DNA of 36,154 nucleotides from a virus. Location of the stretch: IMG/VR virus record IMGVR_UViG_3300042945_003195, positions 1-36,154 of that record. One strand, given 5' to 3'. This document shows positions 16,694-30,238 of the stretch, one piece after another; positions within the stretch are counted from its first letter, which is position 1, and every line of letters begins with the position of its first letter. Under the pieces are notes generated by a model. The model made no database searches, was not told where the DNA came from, and was given only the letters and a program-made list of their open reading frames with translations. Both the position numbers and the translations under genes were made by a program.

Positions 16694-17422
16694 ATGCCAT
16701 TACCAAGTATTTCTACACCAACATATGAGTTGGAATTGCCATCTACAGGAAAAACAATAAAATATAGACCATTTTTAGTAAAAGAGGAAAAGGTTTTAAT
16801 TCTTGCATTAGAAAGTCAGGATACAAAACAAATCACTAATGCAATTAAGCAAGTATTGAAAGAGTGTATTTTAACTAAAGGAATTAAGGTTGAAGAACTC
16901 CCAACTTTTGATATTGAATATGTTTTCCTGAATGTTAGAGGAAAATCTGTTGGTGAAAGTATTGATCTAATTGTTACTTGCTATGATGATGGAGAAACTC
17001 AAGTTCCTGTTACTGTGTATATTGATGAAGTAAAGGTACAAAAAGATCCAGAACATATGAAGGATATTAAACTTGATGACAAGTTAGTTCTAAGAATGAA
17101 ATACCCTTCATTAGAACAATTTATCAAGAATAATTTTGATTTTAGTACTGTTCAGAGTGAGTCAAATATCGAAAAATCTTTTGATATTATTTCTTCCTGC
17201 ATAGAAGCAATATTCAGTAATGATGAGTCTTGGGCTGCATCAGATTGCACTAAAAAAGAATTGATTGAATTTATTGAAAGTATGAATTCATCACAATTTA
17301 AAAAAATAGAGCAATTCTTTGAAACCATGCCAAAACTCTCACATACTATAAAGGTAGTTAATCCAAAAACAAAAGTAGAAAATACTGTGGTATTGGAGGG
17401 TCTAACAAGTTTTTTCGGTTAA
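16694..17422 (+). CDS. 26: Baseplate hub assembly protein, T4 gp26-like
   Basis: 242 residues starting MPLPSISTPTYELELPSTGK and KYRPFLVKEEKVLILALES, the hallmark of the T4 baseplate protein family (gp26). A middle RMKYPSLEQFIKNNFDF and a C-terminal helical part ending EGLTSFFG also fit. T4 gp26 (208 aa) is needed for hub assembly, probably as a chaperone. gp51 follows 2 bases later, the same pairing as in other cyanomyoviruses. Confidence 0.87.
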   Translation: MPLPSISTPTYELELPSTGKTIKYRPFLVKEEKVLILALESQDTKQITNAIKQVLKECILTKGIKVEELPTFDIEYVFLNVRGKSVGESIDLIVTCYDDGETQVPVTVYIDEVKVQKDPEHMKDIKLDDKLVLRMKYPSLEQFIKNNFDFSTVQSESNIEKSFDIISSCIEAIFSNDESWAASDCTKKELIEFIESMNSSQFKKIEQFFETMPKLSHTIKVVNPKTKVENTVVLEGLTSFFG

Positions 17423-17424
17423 TT

Positions 17425-17607
17425 ATGGCTCATATGGAACTTGAGTCATATTTTAAAATTAATTTTGCCCTAATGCAGTTCCATAAATATTCTTTGACGG
17501 AGATTGAAAATATGATGCCCTGGGAAAGGGATATTTACTTAGCACTATTGAGACAGCATATTGAAGACGAAAAACTGAAACAACAGCAAGCAAATGCCAG
17601 CAATTAG
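17425..17607 (+). CDS. 51: Baseplate hub assembly catalyst, gp51-like (60 aa)
   Basis: The short helical protein contains YFKINFALMQFHKYSLTEIE and MMPWERDIYLALLRQHIEDE. The second element, a PW(E/Y)R(D/E)IY motif, is common to phage tail assembly chaperones. In cyanophages the gene after gp26 is usually called gp51. It is much shorter than T4 gp51 (249 aa). An alternative start at 17434 would remove three residues. It overlaps the next gene by 14 bases. Confidence 0.7.
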   Translation: MAHMELESYFKINFALMQFHKYSLTEIENMMPWERDIYLALLRQHIEDEKLKQQQANASN

Positions 17608-19498
17608 TCCTGCTATTAATCCACAAGCAATTGTTGGAAATAGACCAACAAGTACTCAATCTTTTCAGAATTTTATTTCTGGTGGAAGTCCACTTGGTAC
17701 TTCAGTGGTATCAAATGCAGCAAATAAGATTGTTGGTTTTGAAAGGGCAGCAGTAAAACCAGTAATACCAGATATTAATTCAATCGTAAATACAATATCT
17801 TCGAACATTTTAAATCAGGTAGACAATTCAATTCGAAGTGCCACAAATATAATTAATCAAAATACTGATGCTAAGATACAGCAGGTAGAAGGTGGAGTAA
17901 TAAGAGAAGTACAACAGTTAAGAACAGAGACACAAAATAATCAAATAACACAACTACAAACTACAGTAGAAAGAATACAAACACAAACAACAAATATTGT
18001 TGAAAAAATAAGTGAAGATTACAGAAAAAGGGTAGGTGAAATAGATTCAGCAAGACCAAATAATCTCCTTACCAATTTTATACAGTTATATCGAACTGCA
18101 ATTGACTTTATAAAATTCTTTGGTGATAGAAGAAATATTGATACCTTAAGAAGTAATTTAGTTTCACTAAAAGAATCTTTTACCGAAAGTTTTGAGGTAG
18201 CAAAATTAATTAGAAGTACAATTATAAAAATAGTCAATCAGTTATCTAGTCTTCCAACAGCAGGACCTGGAAGTTCTTCTGGATTGAATATAGATGTAAA
18301 TGTTCCAAAATCTGGGATGAAGCAAACTCTTCCCAAAGGTGCTAGAGGAATGAAGGGCAAATTGGGGATGCTTGGATTGGGTCTTGGTGGGTTGGCAGCA
18401 GGAGGAGCAGCAATAAATGCACTTGCAGGATCTAGGAATCAAGTCGAACCAGTACAAACAGAACAATCTATTCCAGGACAAATATTAGATACATTTTCTA
18501 CTCTAATCTCTAGATTTGCTAGTGCAGTTGATGAGATGGTTAAAGGAGGTGAAAGTGCCAAATCTGGTTCGCAGGGAAGTGCGTCATCCAAATCATCGCA
18601 AAAAGGTGGAGGAGGACAAAGAGGTGGAGGTAAATCTCCTGGAAGTGTGAAATCGGGAACTTCTGGAGGAGTTAATGCGGGAGATATAACAGCAGATACT
18701 CCAGAGGAAAAGGCATTTATTGCCACAGTAAGAGAAGCAGAAGGAACTGCTGGATCGCAAGGTTATAATACATTCTTTGGTGGAAGTCAGTACGGTGGAG
18801 ATTTATCAACAAAAACAGTAATGGAAGTTAAACAACTTCAAGAAAAGTTTTTGGCTGAAGGAAAAGGAAGATGGAAGGGAGGAAAGTCGGCAGCTGTTGG
18901 GGCAGGACAATTCTTATACCCAGAACAAATCGTCCGTGCAATGGGGATGGACCCAAATAAAGTTAAGTTCACCCCAGAATTGCAAAACCAAATGATTCTA
19001 TACCTTGCTAAGAAAAAAAGAGGAATTGATGTAAGCAAAGAATTGACTGCTGCTGATTTTAAAATTCTAGGAAAAGAATGGGCAGGATTGAGTGAGTATT
19101 ACGGACAAGGTGGATCTTTAGGTAGAACTGGTAGACTTTATGCCGAGAACCTTAAAGAAGCAAGAGGAAATGTAAAAGCAAAGGAAAGGCCAGGGGTCGG
19201 TGGAGAAGATCTTCCTGAATGGATGTTATCACCACAGAAAAAAGAAGAATTAAAATTGGCAGCCCAGACAGTTTCTCAACCACCACCATCACAAACAGAA
19301 GCACCAAAAATTACTACTCTCCCGTTAGATCTTTCTGGTGGTAATACCGGTGGAGGACAACAGAAACAATCTGGTCCAATTCCAGCACCAACAAGACCTG
19401 GTGCTTCGGGTCCACAGATTCCATATATACCATCCTCAGATCCTGATAATTTCTTAGTTCTTTATTCAAAAATAGTCTATAATATTGTTGACGGATAA
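17594..19498 (+). CDS. Large hub/tail protein with lambda-R-like (GH104) transglycosylase domain
   Basis: 634 residues. Residues 55-220 are helical and probably coiled coil (many Gln, Thr, Ile). At 250-280 lies a glycine-zipper-like hydrophobic stretch (GMLGLGLGGLAAGGAAINAL); 315-360 is Gly/Ser-rich. Residues about 368-525 resemble lambda R endolysin: TVREAEGT (E383 in the place of the catalytic Glu of R), GYNTFFGGSQYGG, AVGAGQF at 434-440 and GKEWAGL at 493-499. That enzyme class cuts peptidoglycan without hydrolysis. The C-terminal tail is Pro/Gly-rich with GGEDLPEWMLSP. Position between gp51 and gp27 suggests a hub or tape-measure protein (T4 gp29 place). It would help the tail open the cell wall at entry. 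Confidence 0.75.
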   Translation: MPAISPAINPQAIVGNRPTSTQSFQNFISGGSPLGTSVVSNAANKIVGFERAAVKPVIPDINSIVNTISSNILNQVDNSIRSATNIINQNTDAKIQQVEGGVIREVQQLRTETQNNQITQLQTTVERIQTQTTNIVEKISEDYRKRVGEIDSARPNNLLTNFIQLYRTAIDFIKFFGDRRNIDTLRSNLVSLKESFTESFEVAKLIRSTIIKIVNQLSSLPTAGPGSSSGLNIDVNVPKSGMKQTLPKGARGMKGKLGMLGLGLGGLAAGGAAINALAGSRNQVEPVQTEQSIPGQILDTFSTLISRFASAVDEMVKGGESAKSGSQGSASSKSSQKGGGGQRGGGKSPGSVKSGTSGGVNAGDITADTPEEKAFIATVREAEGTAGSQGYNTFFGGSQYGGDLSTKTVMEVKQLQEKFLAEGKGRWKGGKSAAVGAGQFLYPEQIVRAMGMDPNKVKFTPELQNQMILYLAKKKRGIDVSKELTAADFKILGKEWAGLSEYYGQGGSLGRTGRLYAENLKEARGNVKAKERPGVGGEDLPEWMLSPQKKEELKLAAQTVSQPPPSQTEAPKITTLPLDLSGGNTGGGQQKQSGPIPAPTRPGASGPQIPYIPSSDPDNFLVLYSKIVYNIVDG

Positions 19499-21558
19499 TG
19501 GCAAAATCACTCTCATCACCACTAATATCTGTAGCAAATAATATTGTCTCTCTAAATTCTAGGTCAAAGAGATCTTTGCCTAGGTTTGTGAATGAGTTTA
19601 AATCATTTTCTTCATTTATTGCTACAGAAAAGGCAGAATTAGATAGACTAAAACTACCAGAGAAAAGAAAGATAAAAGCACTTGCAAATTTAAACATTGC
19701 TAGTAATTTTGGTTCTCCTGGTGGATTATTAAACAGTTTGGCATCCGGTGCAATGGATGTTGCTGGATTTTTGGGAAATATGTTCCCTTCTGGGGGAAAA
19801 TCAGGTAAACCCCAAAAACCAGCAGGTAAACCACCAAAACCAACTGTTAAGGGACCAACATTAAAATTTGGTGGACTACGTTCTATTGGAATTCTGAATG
19901 CAGTTTTTGCTGGACTTGATTTTGCTACTGGTCTTAAGGAAGGAGAATCTGTTGGTAAAGCAGCAGCAGGTGCAGGTGGTAGTTTGGCTGGTGGTTTATT
20001 GGGTGGTGCAATAGGACAGGCACTTATTCCAATTCCTGGACTTGGATTTGTTATTGGAAGTGCTGTTGGTGGAATGGCAGGTGGATGGTTGGGTGATAGA
20101 GCATATGAAACTGGAGAAAAGACATTCGCACAGAAACAAGAAGAAAAAATAAAAACACAAGAAGCAAAACAAAAAGCAGAAGCATCAAAAGGTTCTTATG
20201 ATGGATTAACTGAAGGTTTTGAGGATGCAATTAAAAAATTTGAAAAGTTCGTCCATGGTTCATTTGCATCAATGGTAAATGCTGCTGCAGCAGCATCTGG
20301 TCAAGAGGGAATGCCTTTAGAATATGGAGAACAAATGCCAGAAATTTCAGGAACCGAAGGCACTGGAGAATATCAAGATGTGACTGCAACAGGGGGAAAA
20401 CTCCCAAGTAAATCAATTATTACAAGTAGTTATGGTTGGAGATGGGGAAGACAACATTACGGAACCGATTATGGTGAACCAACTGGAACTCCAATTAGTG
20501 TAATTCAACCAGGAAAGGTAAAGTATGCTGGATGGTCTGATGGTGGTGGAAATTTTGTTGAAATAAATCACACAGATGGTTCAATGACTAGATATCTACA
20601 CTTAAATAAACCTGCAAATGTAAAAACGGGTCAAGCAATTGAACCAGGAACAGTTATTGGTTATGTTGGTAGCACTGGAAGGTCAACTGGCCCCCATTTA
20701 CACTTTGAGTATGCACCACCAGGAAAAGGATCAATTGATTCCGCACCTTATGCAGACAAATACTTTAGATTTGGTGGAAATGTTAAGGTAAAACCAAAAG
20801 CATCTGCTTCTGGTAAAACTGGGGCAGAAGGAACAACTGCAGTTCTTATGGCAGGTACTAATGATACCGATGCAAATAAAGCAGCAGAAAATATCAAAAG
20901 ATCAATAAAAGACTTACAGGCAAAGGGATATAAAGTAGTTGTTGTTCCTCCATCACAACAGCAAGGAAGTCCTTATGCAACTATTGGAGCAGCAATAGAA
21001 AAGGCATCAAAAGAAATGGGTGCCACCGTAGATAAGAAAACATATAAAGGTCAGGGAGATCAAAATCCATTCGCACATTTAGATAAACAATCAGTCCAGT
21101 CATTGAAGCAAAGTTATCCTGGTGCTAAATTCATTGGTGATAGCAACGCAGAAAACTTCCAAGGTTCTATGAACTATAGAGGACAGGATAGCAATTATAT
21201 TATGCAGCAAATATCAAAGATGCAAAATGCAAAACCAGTAGTTCCCTTAGGAGGAGAAGATCTTGATATTTTTTCGATGACTCCAGAGCAAAGATCACAA
21301 TTTGAGGCATATATCAATCCAGCCCCATCACTGAAACCACCAGATGTAAATACATATCCATCATATAATAAACAAGGACAGAGTTCAGTTGTCCTTATGC
21401 CAATAGCACTTCCAACTTCTGGAGAGGGTGGAAGTGCTCCGGTTATTATTTCTGGAGGTGGAGGAACACAAATAATTAAATCTCCGGGACCATCATCAGG
21501 TGAAGTGGTAAATAGTTTAATGAAAACAATGCTTTTAACTAATTTATCTGGGTCATAA
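19498..21558 (+). CDS. Large hub/tail protein with M23 endopeptidase and SGNH-like motifs
   Basis: 686 residues. Residues 120-205 are Gly-rich and hydrophobic (LGGAIGQALIPIPGLGFVIG), as in membrane-contacting tape-measure proteins. Residues about 300-425 form an M23 (LytM-type) zinc endopeptidase: H320 and D324 in QHYGTDYG, H368 in RYLHL, H400 and H402 in GPHLHFE; all metal and catalytic residues are present. Residues about 446-580 show SGNH-hydrolase motifs in permuted order: GTND (453-456), VVVPP, H527, then IGDSN (546-550). The C-terminus carries GGEDLDIFSMTPEQ, similar to the preceding protein. It would cut peptide cross-links at cell entry. Coupled to both neighbours by TAATG. Confidence 0.82.
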   Translation: MAKSLSSPLISVANNIVSLNSRSKRSLPRFVNEFKSFSSFIATEKAELDRLKLPEKRKIKALANLNIASNFGSPGGLLNSLASGAMDVAGFLGNMFPSGGKSGKPQKPAGKPPKPTVKGPTLKFGGLRSIGILNAVFAGLDFATGLKEGESVGKAAAGAGGSLAGGLLGGAIGQALIPIPGLGFVIGSAVGGMAGGWLGDRAYETGEKTFAQKQEEKIKTQEAKQKAEASKGSYDGLTEGFEDAIKKFEKFVHGSFASMVNAAAAASGQEGMPLEYGEQMPEISGTEGTGEYQDVTATGGKLPSKSIITSSYGWRWGRQHYGTDYGEPTGTPISVIQPGKVKYAGWSDGGGNFVEINHTDGSMTRYLHLNKPANVKTGQAIEPGTVIGYVGSTGRSTGPHLHFEYAPPGKGSIDSAPYADKYFRFGGNVKVKPKASASGKTGAEGTTAVLMAGTNDTDANKAAENIKRSIKDLQAKGYKVVVVPPSQQQGSPYATIGAAIEKASKEMGATVDKKTYKGQGDQNPFAHLDKQSVQSLKQSYPGAKFIGDSNAENFQGSMNYRGQDSNYIMQQISKMQNAKPVVPLGGEDLDIFSMTPEQRSQFEAYINPAPSLKPPDVNTYPSYNKQGQSSVVLMPIALPTSGEGGSAPVIISGGGGTQIIKSPGPSSGEVVNSLMKTMLLTNLSGS

Positions 21559-22868
21559 TGTCAAATTCAGTAGCAACTTTTAATATAAAGGCAATAATTA
21601 TAGAATCATTGGACGGTTCAAAAAAAATTGAAGTATCCAATTCATTGCTAAGTGCTGATTACTTTGAGGATATCCTTTCACCATGTGTGACTATGAAAAT
21701 GCAATTAGCAAACAGTTCAACTTTGTTTAATTTACTTCCACTTCGTGGTGGAGAAAAGGTTGCAGTTGAAATTGAGACCTCTCTAGGATCTTTTTATTTG
21801 GATGGAGATTATGCAATGTATGTGTTTAAAGTATCCAATATAAATCCACAAACAAACAGGGAAATAATTACACTACATTTAGTTTCCAGAGAAGGATTAA
21901 CAAATGAAACTGCTAGATGTCAGAAAAAGTATTCGGGAAACATTAACGATAGTGTTGAAGATATTTTAAAGAATGTTTTATTAACAAAAAAATATAAGTC
22001 ATCAAATATAGAAAAAACTGGAAATAGTTATAGTTTTATTGGAAATACTAAAAAACCATTTCATGTTTTAACTTGGTTGGGACCAAAATCAGTACCATCT
22101 TTTAATTCTGGAGGAAATTCTGGAGGAGAAAATACAGGAGAGGCAAAAGGAACCGCTGGATTTTTATTCTATGAAAATAAAGAAGGTTTTAATTTTAAAA
22201 GTGTTGATGGGTTAGTATCAAAAACTCAGTCTGGATCATCTTCAGCAGATGATAAATCAATCACAAAATATTATTATTCTCAGATTAATGAGGCAAATAA
22301 GGATATTAATGATTATAAAATTTTAAACTATACTTTTGAAAAAAATATAGATTTAATGAAATCATTAAGAGTTGGAATGTATGTGAATAAAACTTATTTT
22401 TATGACTTATATACAAATACATTAAGTCAGTATGTATATAAACTAAAGGATCAAATCAAAAATAAGTTAGGGGGAGAAAGTAAAATAGCAGTGTCAAAAG
22501 AATTTGGAGATTCTATTTCTAGAATTATGTTTAGAGTTTCCGATAGAGGGGTTTTATCTGAAGAAGAAGTGACTATAGATTCCGGAAGAGATATTACGGA
22601 TATGGCAAAATCTTATTCTAGATATAATATTTTGTTCACACAAGCACTAAATATGATAGTACCATGCAACGTTAATTTAAAAGTTGGTGATGTAATCTAC
22701 GCAGAATTTCCTAAAGTTAGTAGAACAAAAGAAAAGGAAGCTGATCCAGAACAAAGTGGCAATTATCTAATAAAAGAATTGAGACATCATTTCGAAGGAA
22801 ACCAAATGATTACTAGCCTAAAATTGATCCGTGATAGTTATGGGTTATATGGGTCCAATAATGGTTAA
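21558..22868 (+). CDS. 27: Baseplate hub protein, T4 gp27-like
   Basis: 436 residues (T4 gp27 is 391). The start, NSLLSADYFEDILSPCVTMK followed by PLRGGEKVAVEIET and ITLHLVSREGLTNE, and the C-terminal NLKVGDVIYAEFPKVS with GNYLIKELRHHFEG, follow the gp27 plan of two tube-like domains around the spike. A Gly/Ser-rich loop (about 195-235) is an insertion. gp27 forms the trimeric hub that binds gp5. The gp5-type protein lies one small gene downstream. Confidence 0.83.
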   Translation: MSNSVATFNIKAIIIESLDGSKKIEVSNSLLSADYFEDILSPCVTMKMQLANSSTLFNLLPLRGGEKVAVEIETSLGSFYLDGDYAMYVFKVSNINPQTNREIITLHLVSREGLTNETARCQKKYSGNINDSVEDILKNVLLTKKYKSSNIEKTGNSYSFIGNTKKPFHVLTWLGPKSVPSFNSGGNSGGENTGEAKGTAGFLFYENKEGFNFKSVDGLVSKTQSGSSSADDKSITKYYYSQINEANKDINDYKILNYTFEKNIDLMKSLRVGMYVNKTYFYDLYTNTLSQYVYKLKDQIKNKLGGESKIAVSKEFGDSISRIMFRVSDRGVLSEEEVTIDSGRDITDMAKSYSRYNILFTQALNMIVPCNVNLKVGDVIYAEFPKVSRTKEKEADPEQSGNYLIKELRHHFEGNQMITSLKLIRDSYGLYGSNNG

Positions 22869-22873
22869 TTAAA

Positions 22874-23083
22874 ATGGAACTACAAACAATAATCAATGAT
22901 ATATGCGAGGAACTTGAGAGTCCTGCAATAAATAAACAAAGAAAAAGATATTTGGAAAATTATCTTTCTGAATTATTAGAATATCAGCAGCATAATCCTG
23001 ATGCTATTGATTGTCCAACTCATTTTGAGTTGTTTTGTGATTTAAACCCAGACGCACCTGAATGTAGAATTTTCGATGATTGA
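22874..23083 (+). CDS. Small acidic protein between gp27 and gp5-type gene (69 aa)
   Basis: A helical, acidic protein (QTIINDICEELESPAINKQR, then LENYLSELLEYQQ) with a Cys-containing end (IDCPTHFELFCDLNPDAPEC). No family recognised. It overlaps the gp5-type gene by 8 bases. Placement suggests a hub assembly factor or small hub component, which is inference only. Confidence 0.65.
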   Translation: MELQTIINDICEELESPAINKQRKRYLENYLSELLEYQQHNPDAIDCPTHFELFCDLNPDAPECRIFDD

Positions 23084-25688
23084 AGAATCTTTATTAAAAT
23101 CTAATTTTATAGGAAAAGACGGATTTGTTTGGTGGATCGGTCAAGTTGCTCCTGCATCCGTTTGGAGAAATGAAAAATCTAAACCAGATGCAGGAGAGAA
23201 TAAAAAGGGCGCAGGTTCTCCTAGTTGGGCATATAGATGTAAAGTAAGAATTATTGGTTATCATACTTTTGATGGAGGTGTACTTCCTGATGATGAATTA
23301 CCTTGGGCACATGTATCTGTAGGAGCAGAAACTGGATCCGCACAAGGTAGTGTTGGACAAACAATGCGACTAACTGGCGGAGAAACAGTTTTTGGATTTT
23401 TTATTGATGGTGATGATGCCCAGCAACCAGTTGTTGTGGGATGTCTTCACAGAAATGAAAGTGTTCAAAATCTTGTCGATGAATCATTTTTGCAGCAAGA
23501 AAAAAGTTCTCAGTTTAGACCATTCACTGGATTGCAGGGTAAATTATCCCAAGGTGCAACACAAATAAGAAGACAAAATGATGCGGTTCAAGGAGAACCA
23601 AAAACAAATTCTACTCCTGTCGATATTTCCGATAAAAGTTTAGTTGGTGATCCTGTAGAATTTACAAGAGAAGAGAATAAGTCGGGGGAAGATCAACTAA
23701 TTAGAAATGACCTAGCGACACAACAGTGGGAGACGGAATACTGTAGTGTTAAAGTAGTTCGTGAAAATGGATGTACTGACAATTTAATCTCAAAAATACA
23801 ATCGGTAATAGAAGAATTTTTAAATTTTGTTAATGGATTAATTTCAACTGGGTTGTCATATCTTGATACTGGATTAGCATATATCGATCAGATTTTAAAT
23901 ACATTTGTAGATTTACCTACCAGAATTTGTGAATTTGCTGGAAGAATACTAGGAATTATTAAATTTATAATAAACAATATGCGTAATGGCATATTGGGTT
24001 TAATTGGTAAATTGTTTGGGCAACTTATTGGTCTTATAGTACCACTACCTCAACAACCACCAATTGCTTCAGCAACAAAAAATATAATGGATATTATATT
24101 TTGCGTTTTTGAAAAGATATTGGCAGCATTGGGTCCTTGGTTATGTGATTTCCTAGAAGGAATGGTAGGAAATATTACAAATGCCCCATTATGTGCAGTA
24201 CAGCAGGCAGTTGCTGCCATCCTTGCAAAAATTATGGATTTACTTGATGATTTACTTTCACCTATTTTATCTGGTGTTAGTTGGTTAGTTGGTGGATTGG
24301 GAACAGTATCAAGCATTTTAAGTTCAGTTTCTTCAATTGCACAACAAATTTTAAATTTCCTTGGATGTGATCAATTAAAATGTGAAACTACTACTGAATG
24401 GACACCATGTAAGGGATCCAAAACTGCACCAGGAGATAGATGGAATAAAGTCTTAGGCAATCTTAATGATATTGATATAAATTCGAATTTAGGAGAGTTA
24501 TCTGTTTTTGGTTATAGTGGTTCTTCTGCATTTTCTGATTGCACAAATACTGCTAAGAATCCAAAAGATCAAGATGATCAGATTTCAAATCCACCATCAA
24601 CAAAGACTCCATATTGCATTCCACCAAAAGTTGAAATTTTTGGAAACGGAGTTCAAGCACAAGCAACAGCAATTGTTGCTGATGATGGATCAATATTGTC
24701 AATAAAAGTGGTTAAAGGTGGAAAGGGTTATACAAAACCACCATCAATCAATATTATTGATAACACAAACCACGGAAAAGGTGCAAAGGCAAAAGCAAAA
24801 ATAAAAAATGGTAGAGTATCTGCAATATACCTTACCAATTCTGGAAGTGGGTACTGTAAGGGTGATTATACAAAGTTCAATGAAAATCCAACTTATCTAG
24901 TCACCGCAAATAAATATTCTTTCTTTGAGGGAGAAACAGTAAGATATACAGTTACAACGACAAATGTTCCAAATGGAACTAAATTGGAATATGATTTGTC
25001 TGGTGATATAAAATTAGAGGACATGGAAAATGTTTCTTCTCTTTCGGGTAATTTAATTATAAATTCAAATACTGCCTCAATTTCGTTCAAATTTAAACAA
25101 GATAGTATAAATGAAAATGTAGAGACTCAATATTTTAGCTTATATGATGCTGAGGGAAATAAGGTTGCTAGGACAACAGTATTAGTTAATAATGAACTAT
25201 CTCCAATATTAAGTCCAGAACCAAACAATCCAAATGAATCTCCACCTGGAACTTATATTCTTCCAGAATCTGGAGGAACGGCAGGGACTGGAGCAACAAC
25301 TATTATCACTCCTCCGGGAATTGGTGGTATTGGTACTTCTGGAGATGGTATCGGAATACCTCCTGGAGGTATTGGTGGAATAGGAACAGGAATTGTTGGC
25401 ATAATTACAAGCATCATTCCAGAAAGACCTGGATATGGATATACTGACGGTGATAAAATTAGGGTTGGTAATTGTGAATTTGGACTTATCTTGTCAAAAC
25501 AAGGATCTATAGTCGGTGTCACTAGTATCAGTTGCAGTACAATCTTTGATACTTTACCAACATTATCGATAATAACAAATACAGGGCAAGGTGCAGAACT
25601 CTATCCCGTGATAGAATATACTCCACCAAGTACATTGGTCACAACTATCAATGAATTTGGAGTAATTAATGTTGTTGATTGTGTTTGA
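23076..25688 (+). CDS. 5: gp5-type OB-fold baseplate hub protein without lysozyme domain
   Basis: 870 residues. Residues 1-125 match the gp5/VgrG OB domain: FVWWIGQVAPASVW, CKVRIIGYHTFDGG, LPWAHVSVGAETGS, GGETVFGFFIDGDDAQQPVV, VGCLHRNE. No T4-lysozyme-like domain follows. Residues 236-436 are extremely hydrophobic and helical (GRILGIIKFIINNMRNGILG and more), interrupted by several Cys. Then come a GKGYTKPP/SGSGYCKG repeat pair (520-595), a Calx-beta-like domain with FFEGETVRYTVTTTN (about 605-706), a Gly/Pro/Ile-rich stretch (735-780) and a last GYGYTDGD repeat. The OB part should bind the gp27-like ring. The other parts have no T4 equivalent. Confidence 0.78.
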   Translation: MIEESLLKSNFIGKDGFVWWIGQVAPASVWRNEKSKPDAGENKKGAGSPSWAYRCKVRIIGYHTFDGGVLPDDELPWAHVSVGAETGSAQGSVGQTMRLTGGETVFGFFIDGDDAQQPVVVGCLHRNESVQNLVDESFLQQEKSSQFRPFTGLQGKLSQGATQIRRQNDAVQGEPKTNSTPVDISDKSLVGDPVEFTREENKSGEDQLIRNDLATQQWETEYCSVKVVRENGCTDNLISKIQSVIEEFLNFVNGLISTGLSYLDTGLAYIDQILNTFVDLPTRICEFAGRILGIIKFIINNMRNGILGLIGKLFGQLIGLIVPLPQQPPIASATKNIMDIIFCVFEKILAALGPWLCDFLEGMVGNITNAPLCAVQQAVAAILAKIMDLLDDLLSPILSGVSWLVGGLGTVSSILSSVSSIAQQILNFLGCDQLKCETTTEWTPCKGSKTAPGDRWNKVLGNLNDIDINSNLGELSVFGYSGSSAFSDCTNTAKNPKDQDDQISNPPSTKTPYCIPPKVEIFGNGVQAQATAIVADDGSILSIKVVKGGKGYTKPPSINIIDNTNHGKGAKAKAKIKNGRVSAIYLTNSGSGYCKGDYTKFNENPTYLVTANKYSFFEGETVRYTVTTTNVPNGTKLEYDLSGDIKLEDMENVSSLSGNLIINSNTASISFKFKQDSINENVETQYFSLYDAEGNKVARTTVLVNNELSPILSPEPNNPNESPPGTYILPESGGTAGTGATTIITPPGIGGIGTSGDGIGIPPGGIGGIGTGIVGIITSIIPERPGYGYTDGDKIRVGNCEFGLILSKQGSIVGVTSISCSTIFDTLPTLSIITNTGQGAELYPVIEYTPPSTLVTTINEFGVINVVDCV

Positions 25689-28594: not shown

Positions 28595-30238
28595 ATGGCA
28601 AAGACCAGTGCATCTCAGGAAGTAATTAAAGAGTTAGAAGAAGAATTAGATAGAAAAATAAAAGAAAGAGAAGCAATATTAGATGAATTATCTTTAATCG
28701 ATTTACAACTTGATAAGTATGATGTATTAATTAAAGAAATAGATAAAGAAGCTCTTGGTGCTGTTAATGTACTGAATAATGAAGTCTATAATGTAAAATC
28801 TGCATATGATGCCAGAATTGCTTCTGGAGTGCGTACAAATTTAGTTTGGGAATTACAATCTGATGTCACTTTAGGTTTTGGAACACAGACTTCAAATATC
28901 AAAACTTATGAAGTTGTCGAAAATCTTGCGACTCAAGTAACAAAAAATTTATATGGTCTAAAGTACTATAGCAATCCATCAGATAGAGACTATGGATCCA
29001 ATTTTATTGCTGATTTTAATGGAAATATTTCTGCAGGCAGTAGTATAATGGCAGTTCTTCCAGGAACTGCTGTAGAAAGTAATCTTGCTGCTTTCAATGA
29101 CGATGATTTGGGAACAGAGGAGTTGACGGTTAAACTTGGAGATACTGTAGTTGATGATTTGGAAGAACCGATATTTTTTAGTAGCACAAACTTACCAACA
29201 ATAACTGGATTCGGAACAACTGACATTGTTGGAATAATAACATCTGTTATTGGAGGAATTTCCACTGGATCAAATCAGTTTGTCCATTTTGGAGCTGGTG
29301 ATTTTTCCATGATTGAAGTTGGTCAATATATTATAGGACCAAAAATAACAGGATTTGCTTCTGTTTTTGATGAGTCTCCAAGACCACCAAAAATTACAGG
29401 TTTTGGTACAGCAACAATACAATTAGAATATTTTGATGCCAGTGGAATTTTAACTACAACTCCATTTACTTCAAATACATTCATATTGGATAAAGTTGCA
29501 ATTAATGGACTAGAAGAAGGAACTTTTTCTATAGGAATATTAACTACATGTCAGGCATATTATCTAAGTACAGTTTCTTTAGGTTCTACTGATTTTGAAT
29601 CATTTAGTGTTTATAGATTTGATGAAGATATTGATGCGGACTTTGATGATGAGAAGGATCCGACTAATAGAGTAGAAATTGGAATGATAAACTCGGGTAA
29701 TCTTGGTCTTGGTTCTAAAATTGAATATAGCACTGGAGGCACAAAGCAGGGTCCTGAAAAATATGATAAGTACTCGTATGATAGGCAGGGGAAAAAGAAA
29801 CCAGAACCAGATATTGGAGCAGGATCAGTAACTTGGAATACAGGAACAACTCAATATCCAATGATTGGTGGATTTTTTGGGGTTGGTGGTTCTTATGCAT
29901 CTTTGGGTACTACTATAAAAATAGATTCAAGTAGTCCAACTTCAGTAAGTCCAGCATATAGTTCATCTCCGCCCCCAGGAACTCCTGGTGCTGGATCGTA
30001 TAATTCTGCCATATCATCTGCAGAATCAGGTTTAGCAAGTGCAGAAAGTGGGGATTCGTCTTCAATTGCAACCAGTGCAGTGACTGCTTCTGCCGGATTG
30101 AGAAAAGAAAGAAATGAGAAGCAAATGTATGCATGGTCTCTGCTTCAAGGTGCATCTACGGCAAGAAAAAGAATAGATGAAATAAGAACAACATTAAAAT
30201 CATTAAAGAATACTGATTATTCCAGATATGAAAAATAA
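28595..30238 (+). CDS. Virion structural protein with N-terminal coiled coil (547 aa)
   Basis: Residues 1-70 are a strongly charged coiled coil (EVIKELEEELDRKIKEREAI). The middle is beta-rich with repeated ITGFG elements (LPTITGFGTTDIVGIITSVI, PKITGFASVF, PKITGFGTATIQ). Residues 395-480 are Gly/Pro/Ser-rich, and the C-terminus is helical again (RKERNEKQMYAWSLLQGAST). Such proteins next to fibre genes in cyanophages are usually found in virions. A fibre-attachment or baseplate-periphery role is inferred from position. Confidence 0.6.
   Translation: MAKTSASQEVIKELEEELDRKIKEREAILDELSLIDLQLDKYDVLIKEIDKEALGAVNVLNNEVYNVKSAYDARIASGVRTNLVWELQSDVTLGFGTQTSNIKTYEVVENLATQVTKNLYGLKYYSNPSDRDYGSNFIADFNGNISAGSSIMAVLPGTAVESNLAAFNDDDLGTEELTVKLGDTVVDDLEEPIFFSSTNLPTITGFGTTDIVGIITSVIGGISTGSNQFVHFGAGDFSMIEVGQYIIGPKITGFASVFDESPRPPKITGFGTATIQLEYFDASGILTTTPFTSNTFILDKVAINGLEEGTFSIGILTTCQAYYLSTVSLGSTDFESFSVYRFDEDIDADFDDEKDPTNRVEIGMINSGNLGLGSKIEYSTGGTKQGPEKYDKYSYDRQGKKKPEPDIGAGSVTWNTGTTQYPMIGGFFGVGGSYASLGTTIKIDSSSPTSVSPAYSSSPPPGTPGAGSYNSAISSAESGLASAESGDSSSIATSAVTASAGLRKERNEKQMYAWSLLQGASTARKRIDEIRTTLKSLKNTDYSRYEK

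Follow-up and report, generated by a model that had tools for sequence, protein, structure and literature searches.

A gene in the tail region of a 36-kb virus record (the window, that is, the whole stretch of DNA analyzed) encodes a peptidase domain followed by the motifs of SGNH esterases, enzymes that remove ester and acetyl groups, in an uncanonical order, which raises the question of whether these motifs belong to a circularly permuted enzyme domain and, if so, what such a domain does in a phage tail. Besides psbA (the photosystem II D1 protein), the window carries PhoH, Thy1, gp32, and gp59 together with baseplate gp53, tail tube cap, gp26, and gp5 genes, a content from which we infer a T4-like cyanophage as the probable source. 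The order at the locus is gp26 hub, a 634-aa gene, the gene with the domain, a phrog_350 tail protein, and gp5 (Table 1). The sequence-only reading had spoken of a tail hub protein; the gene does lie beside hub genes, but its product is not a named hub subunit. Elsewhere in the window, an open reading frame directly after psbA (positions 1834 to 2382) matches the lysine-decarboxylase/LOG family (SLOG-type) and is DprA-like according to PHROGs, and a 547-aa open reading frame beside the tail fiber gene (28595 to 30238) had no match in Pfam or PHROGs.

Table 1. Features of the tail locus and of the protein with the putative permuted SGNH domain (window coordinates)
Feature	Position	Strand	Evidence
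gp26-like baseplate hub gene, upstream anchor	16694..17422	+	phrog_150, E 2e-79
634-aa neighbor gene, tail region	17594..19498	+	Counterpart in L003 has endolysin-like region
Tail-region protein gene, 686 aa, carrying the putative permuted SGNH domain	19498..21558	+	Open reading frame; full-length orthologs in L001-L003, L018, L019
M23 peptidase domain, residues 319-406	20452..20715	+	Pfam PF01551
Putative circularly permuted SGNH domain, residues 446-580	20833..21237	+	Family profile, AlphaFold2, permutation tests
Block III, AVLMAGTND (N455 = 20860-20862)	20839..20865	+	Sequence; family conservation
Canonical strand 4, KVVVVPP, residues 479-485	20932..20952	+	Invariant family columns
Block V region: D521, H527 (21076-21078), then helix	21058..21105	+	Family conservation
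Block I, FIGDSNA (S549 = 21142-21144)	21130..21150	+	Family conservation; model strand 103-106
Block II-like YRGQDSNYIMQQI, residues 560-572, G562 (YRGQDS)	21175..21213	+	G in 19/21 full members
Tail protein, downstream anchor	21558..22868	+	phrog_350, E 4e-98
gp5-like baseplate hub and tail lysozyme	23076..25688	+	phrog_1922, E 2e-137

The M23 domain was well over the cut-off in the Pfam scan (E 2.1e-28, 98.8 bits versus 28.7). All the motifs come after it, in the order AVLMAGTND, KVVVVPP, AHLDKQSVQSL (H527), KFIGDSNAEN (S549), and YRGQDSNYIMQQI, and both their succession and the numbering of N455, H527, and S549 are as the sequence-only reading had given them. Along the chain, the blocks run III-V-I-II instead of the canonical I-II-III-V, a departure that consists of a rotation only, and the GDS of block I, the Gly of block II, and the GxND of block III by which the SGNH superfamily is recognized all appear in the window copy.

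Taken by itself, however, the window sequence provides marginal evidence for an SGNH relationship, and on this basis the claim would stay open. Lipase_GDSL_2 (PF13472) scored below its cut-off (E 5e-4 to 8e-3, 17 to 21 bits versus 32.9), and the match was limited to the first (III) half, at profile positions 64 to 141; I-II halves searched alone had no GDSL match in Pfam. As a single query, the window domain retrieved nothing from the phage collection and only close kin from the viral contigs, PDB sequence searches gave no convincing match, and PHROGs searched with the domain alone gave none. Pattern-limited scans of the genome contigs of 84,980 bacterial and archaeal species found no relative, and the genes of Arthrobacter phage Liebe and of cyanophages B23, S-MbCM7, S-PM2, and Sf-FP1, which matched in the M23 region, have no such domain after M23. 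Two findings place the similarity above chance: a divergent family repeats the motifs in this order, and once rotated they fit phage SGNH proteins of canonical order.

The route to this family began with a weak initial model, whose structure search pointed to a protein of Synechococcus phage ACG-2014d. The gene at the same position of that phage is a degenerate copy, and phages S-SSM4 and S-SSM6b also carry one. A profile made from these sequences recovered 39 viral contigs, to which later scans added four, so that the domain is encoded in 43 viral contigs and in the three named phages, where the protein is annotated just as an endolysin or as hypothetical. The window domain matches the family profile, of which it is one row, with 142 bits over residues 448 to 581. 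An early view based on six close orthologs, in which S, N, and H appeared unconserved, was overturned by the wider family.

In the 29-row family alignment, N, H, and GDS occur together in 21 rows (the full members), 19 of which also have the block II Gly, which is the conservation that the sequence-only reading had proposed to check. The strand 4 region contains GY, V, and PP columns that are invariant in both the 28- and the 29-row alignments. The clearest case is contig L075, which reads LLSMGTNDW, VVVVPPTG, DGYHPTSEEYKRIA, VVVGDSIAQGIG, and VATQGIQTDAILAKL, that is, blocks III, V, I, and II in textbook form but rotated (GTNDW, DGYHPT, GDSIA, QGIQT); textbook blocks in this rotated order were also found in L062, L063, and L101. 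The usual Asp three residues before the His, which had been noted as missing, is indeed missing from the window copy, where the Asp stands at H-6 (D521-x5-H527), but DxxH is present in eight full members (L075, L063, L054 to L057, L076, and L077), as DPLH or DGYH in some. Gly occupies H-3 in L062, L101, and L073, and extra residues separate Asp from His in the window and other copies; the absence of Asp from H-3 appears to reflect an altered loop.

To evaluate the permutation, we used four phage proteins of canonical order I-II-III-V, the compact SGNH proteins L104 and L105 and the further relatives L107 and L108. The first two match the family over their III-V half only, and since they were found through that half, the evidence from their I-II half is unselected; the family profile aligned to both in two pieces of swapped order. 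Each of the four was rotated at the block II/III junction and the best single alignment was scored, giving 32.8, 40.8, 16.6, and 14.4 bits versus 14.0, 29.0, 12.1, and 6.8 bits without rotation. Shuffled I-II halves reached the rotated score in 0, 0, 0, and 1 of 500 trials, and the best of all possible cut points (residues 45, 45, 45, and 49) lay at the II/III junction in each of the proteins. In the reverse direction, a canonical profile produced two swapped matches in L063, L075, L062, L101, L054 to L056, and L102. In the window copy it detected only the III half, so the place of the window rests on the family. A tandem-duplication intermediate was not seen with the family profile in any of the fetched loci. 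Together with the III-V-I-II order of the family, the rotated alignments support the circular permutation suspected from the window sequence, with residues 446 to 580 as a putative SGNH domain of order N-H-S-G. The permuted chain would start with canonical strand 3 (block III, GTND), continue through strands 4 and 5 with the His block to strand 1 (GDS), and finish with block II.

The canonical SGNH sheet has the order 2-1-3-4-5, from which it can be deduced that 3-2-1-4-5, the Rossmann order, would result if strands 1 and 2 were transferred to the chain end. The AlphaFold2 model of residues 442 to 583, obtained with the 29-row alignment, is a confident alpha/beta fold (pLDDT 93.8, pTM 0.89) in which helices separate five strands or bridges, located at model residues 6 to 10, 38 to 41, 69 to 70, 103 to 106, and 118 to 119. 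Its best matches were HAD phosphatases and universal stress proteins, which have Rossmann order (Z 7.8 to 7.0); these values may reflect the Rossmann order deduced above or possibly just a common arrangement. The sequence-only reading had proposed a structure prediction followed by a search against SGNH hydrolases; for this model, no SGNH enzyme was among the best 50 matches in Foldseek and VIA. Both aligners follow sequence order, and for this reason we did not count the absence against membership. The first, weak model had matched the esterase CrmE10 (probability of 0.72) and Escherichia coli thioesterase I (Z 5.5), the other matches in Foldseek and VIA being generic alpha/beta proteins.

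The catalytic set is incomplete in several members. L002, 89% identical to the window, has Gln in place of H527 and also lacks D521; L018 and L019 have GDE instead of GDS and no His loop, and L018 has in addition GTSD instead of GTND. Ser and His are absent from the short forms. They are also absent from L030 (9151 to 11973; ACG-2014d) and L036 (2134 to 4563; S-SSM4), which read GDQ and GDK and keep the domain. The domain tree, in which long branches and an unknown root make the direction of change a matter of inference, requires three or more transitions between full and incomplete sets (L002, the short forms, and the ACG-2014d/S-SSM4 clade), all forced by starred branches. The domain of the degenerate short forms had a dN/dS of 0.06 to 0.15, which indicates purifying selection and is lower than elsewhere in the gene; for the pairs from ACG-2014d and S-SSM4, the sequences were too similar for dN/dS to be very informative. 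This selection makes a noncatalytic role likely in some phages. The noncatalytic look-alike suspected earlier is a real possibility for part of the family.

Comparison of the window with L001 revealed a tract of 95 to 100% identity (20744 to 21343) that spans the domain, against 79 to 94% in most flanking stretches. Codon differences numbered 1 in 135 within the domain and 147 in 551 outside it in this gene. The tract looks like the result of a recent exchange of the domain. A second near-identical tract starts at about position 22244.

The surroundings of the domain are conserved as well. According to tblastn, one or both anchors (gp26 and phrog_350) flank it in almost every relative examined, even where divergence has left gp26 only 33 to 36% identical. 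An M23 domain accompanies it in the window, L042, L043, L049, L051, L054, L055, and L102, and Phage_lysozyme2 does so in L062 (clear) and L063 (below cut-off). Close relatives of the window gene in L076 (3104 to 5260) and L077 (3128 to 5296) have no M23 and carry Amidase_5 C-terminal to the permuted domain, a swap of partners at the same locus. In L061 (2027 to 4675), the order seen in the window is inverted, the permuted domain (residues 656 to 802) coming before an endolysin-like region. The 634-aa neighbor in the window had no match in PHROGs or among solved structures; its L003 counterpart matches the phrog_90 endolysin (E 3e-31, residues 357 to 525). Virions of the T4-like cyanophage S-CREM2 contained two proteins with an endolysin annotation, detected through 73 and 71 unique peptides, whose genes immediately precede that of a baseplate central spike (PMC10665884). 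This pair, equated by gene order only, may be the counterpart of the window locus.

The constant company of wall hydrolases suggests an esterase whose target at entry is peptidoglycan or glycans attached to it, and a virion-borne envelope esterase is the most likely identity of the domain. It would be a small, tail-carried carbohydrate or peptidoglycan esterase/deacetylase with S549 as the nucleophile, H527 as the base, D521 possibly as the acid, and N455 and G562 forming the oxyanion hole. During genome entry, it would take acetyl or ester groups off the envelope polymer that is cut by the adjacent M23 domain and the neighboring hydrolases; in several lineages it would have decayed to a noncatalytic form and yet been retained. 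Our search of the literature on peptidoglycan O-acetylation in cyanobacteria returned nothing relevant. Considered as a whole, a permuted, tail-carried esterase/deacetylase with decay in several lineages is the best explanation and probably the right one.

Its main rival is a binding role, since selection maintains the domain even though three or more lineages have altered or missing catalytic residues. The domain would then be a permuted SGNH fold by descent that is noncatalytic here and binds an envelope polymer or a tail protein, with S, N, and H as relics. The close relative with Gln for H527 and without D521, the lack of Ser and His in the short forms and the ACG-2014d/S-SSM4 clade, and the purifying selection on degenerate short forms, which implies usefulness without catalysis, all point this way. 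However, N, H, and GDS stay together in 21 divergent rows and the window copy has D, H, S, N, and the block II G, so that we regard a purely binding domain here as rather unlikely. Less plausible still, and in our opinion improbable, is an unpermuted Rossmann-type domain of separate origin in which GxND, His, and GDS arose by convergence. The Rossmann-order top matches and the lack of SGNH enzymes in the best 50 would suit it, but rotating an SGNH sheet would itself yield that order, rotation improved the alignment of all four canonical proteins at the same junction with hardly any shuffle doing as well, and all four blocks of L075 have textbook form. As for a chance assembly of the short motifs in a linker of low similarity, with no true domain present, the below-cut-off Pfam scores of the window copy and the empty single-query search of the phage collection are what it would produce, but the 43 viral contigs, the confident fold, and the purifying selection refute it, and it can be practically dismissed.

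Enzyme superfamilies seldom undergo circular permutation in nature, and in the literature searched it was found for SGNH proteins only in acetyltransferase families, which have a different cut point. The rotated order N-H-S-G was not described there; in our data the motif order is confirmed and the permutation is supported, and the catalysis, the pocket, and the substrate are predictions. If true, a flavodoxin-like SGNH sheet would have been turned to Rossmann order with its catalytic motifs kept, and cyanophages would have an unrecognized ester-removing step as they cross the cell envelope. The family offers intact, altered, and decayed natural variants. Permuted SGNH domains may also be underannotated, because order-bound profiles score the present one below threshold. 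We found the N-H-S-G domain only in cyanophage-type tail loci. Whether it is a separate arrangement cut between blocks II and III that serves there as an envelope esterase of the virion, is paired with interchangeable peptidoglycan hydrolases, and has turned time and again into a retained pseudoenzyme is to us evenly balanced.

Several known systems resemble parts of this picture. Lipase_GDSL_2 and SGNH (PF19040) match the III half, although below cut-off (E about 5e-4) and with just a part of the profile aligned as one piece. The canonical phage proteins L104, L105, L107, and L108 have the same blocks and align to the permuted family after rotation, but they are free-standing small proteins of order I-II-III-V. 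The accessible titles and abstracts, with most subscription papers and preprints outside the search, yielded no description of a permuted phage SGNH domain, and a literature search with the same bounds yielded none of SGNH domains in cyanophage tails. SGNH or deacetylase domains of phage tail fibers and spikes are virion-borne and thought to target surface polysaccharide (PMC9569702, PMC8471582); they sit in receptor-binding proteins, whereas the window domain is permuted and lies beside peptidoglycan hydrolases at a baseplate hub locus. A further parallel is provided by the O-acetyltransferases AlgJ/AlgX and PatB1 (DHHW), which also have a circularly permuted SGNH fold and use Ser-His chemistry on carbohydrates, in the order H-S-G-N with altered motifs (PMC4148444, PMC9487903). 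The ALGX and DHHW Pfam models had no match in the domain scans. Those enzymes have GTSYS or KDS, DxH or TDHHW, and no block III Asn, whereas the phage domain, of about 140 residues and situated at a tail locus, combines standard GDS and GxND motifs with the order N-H-S-G.
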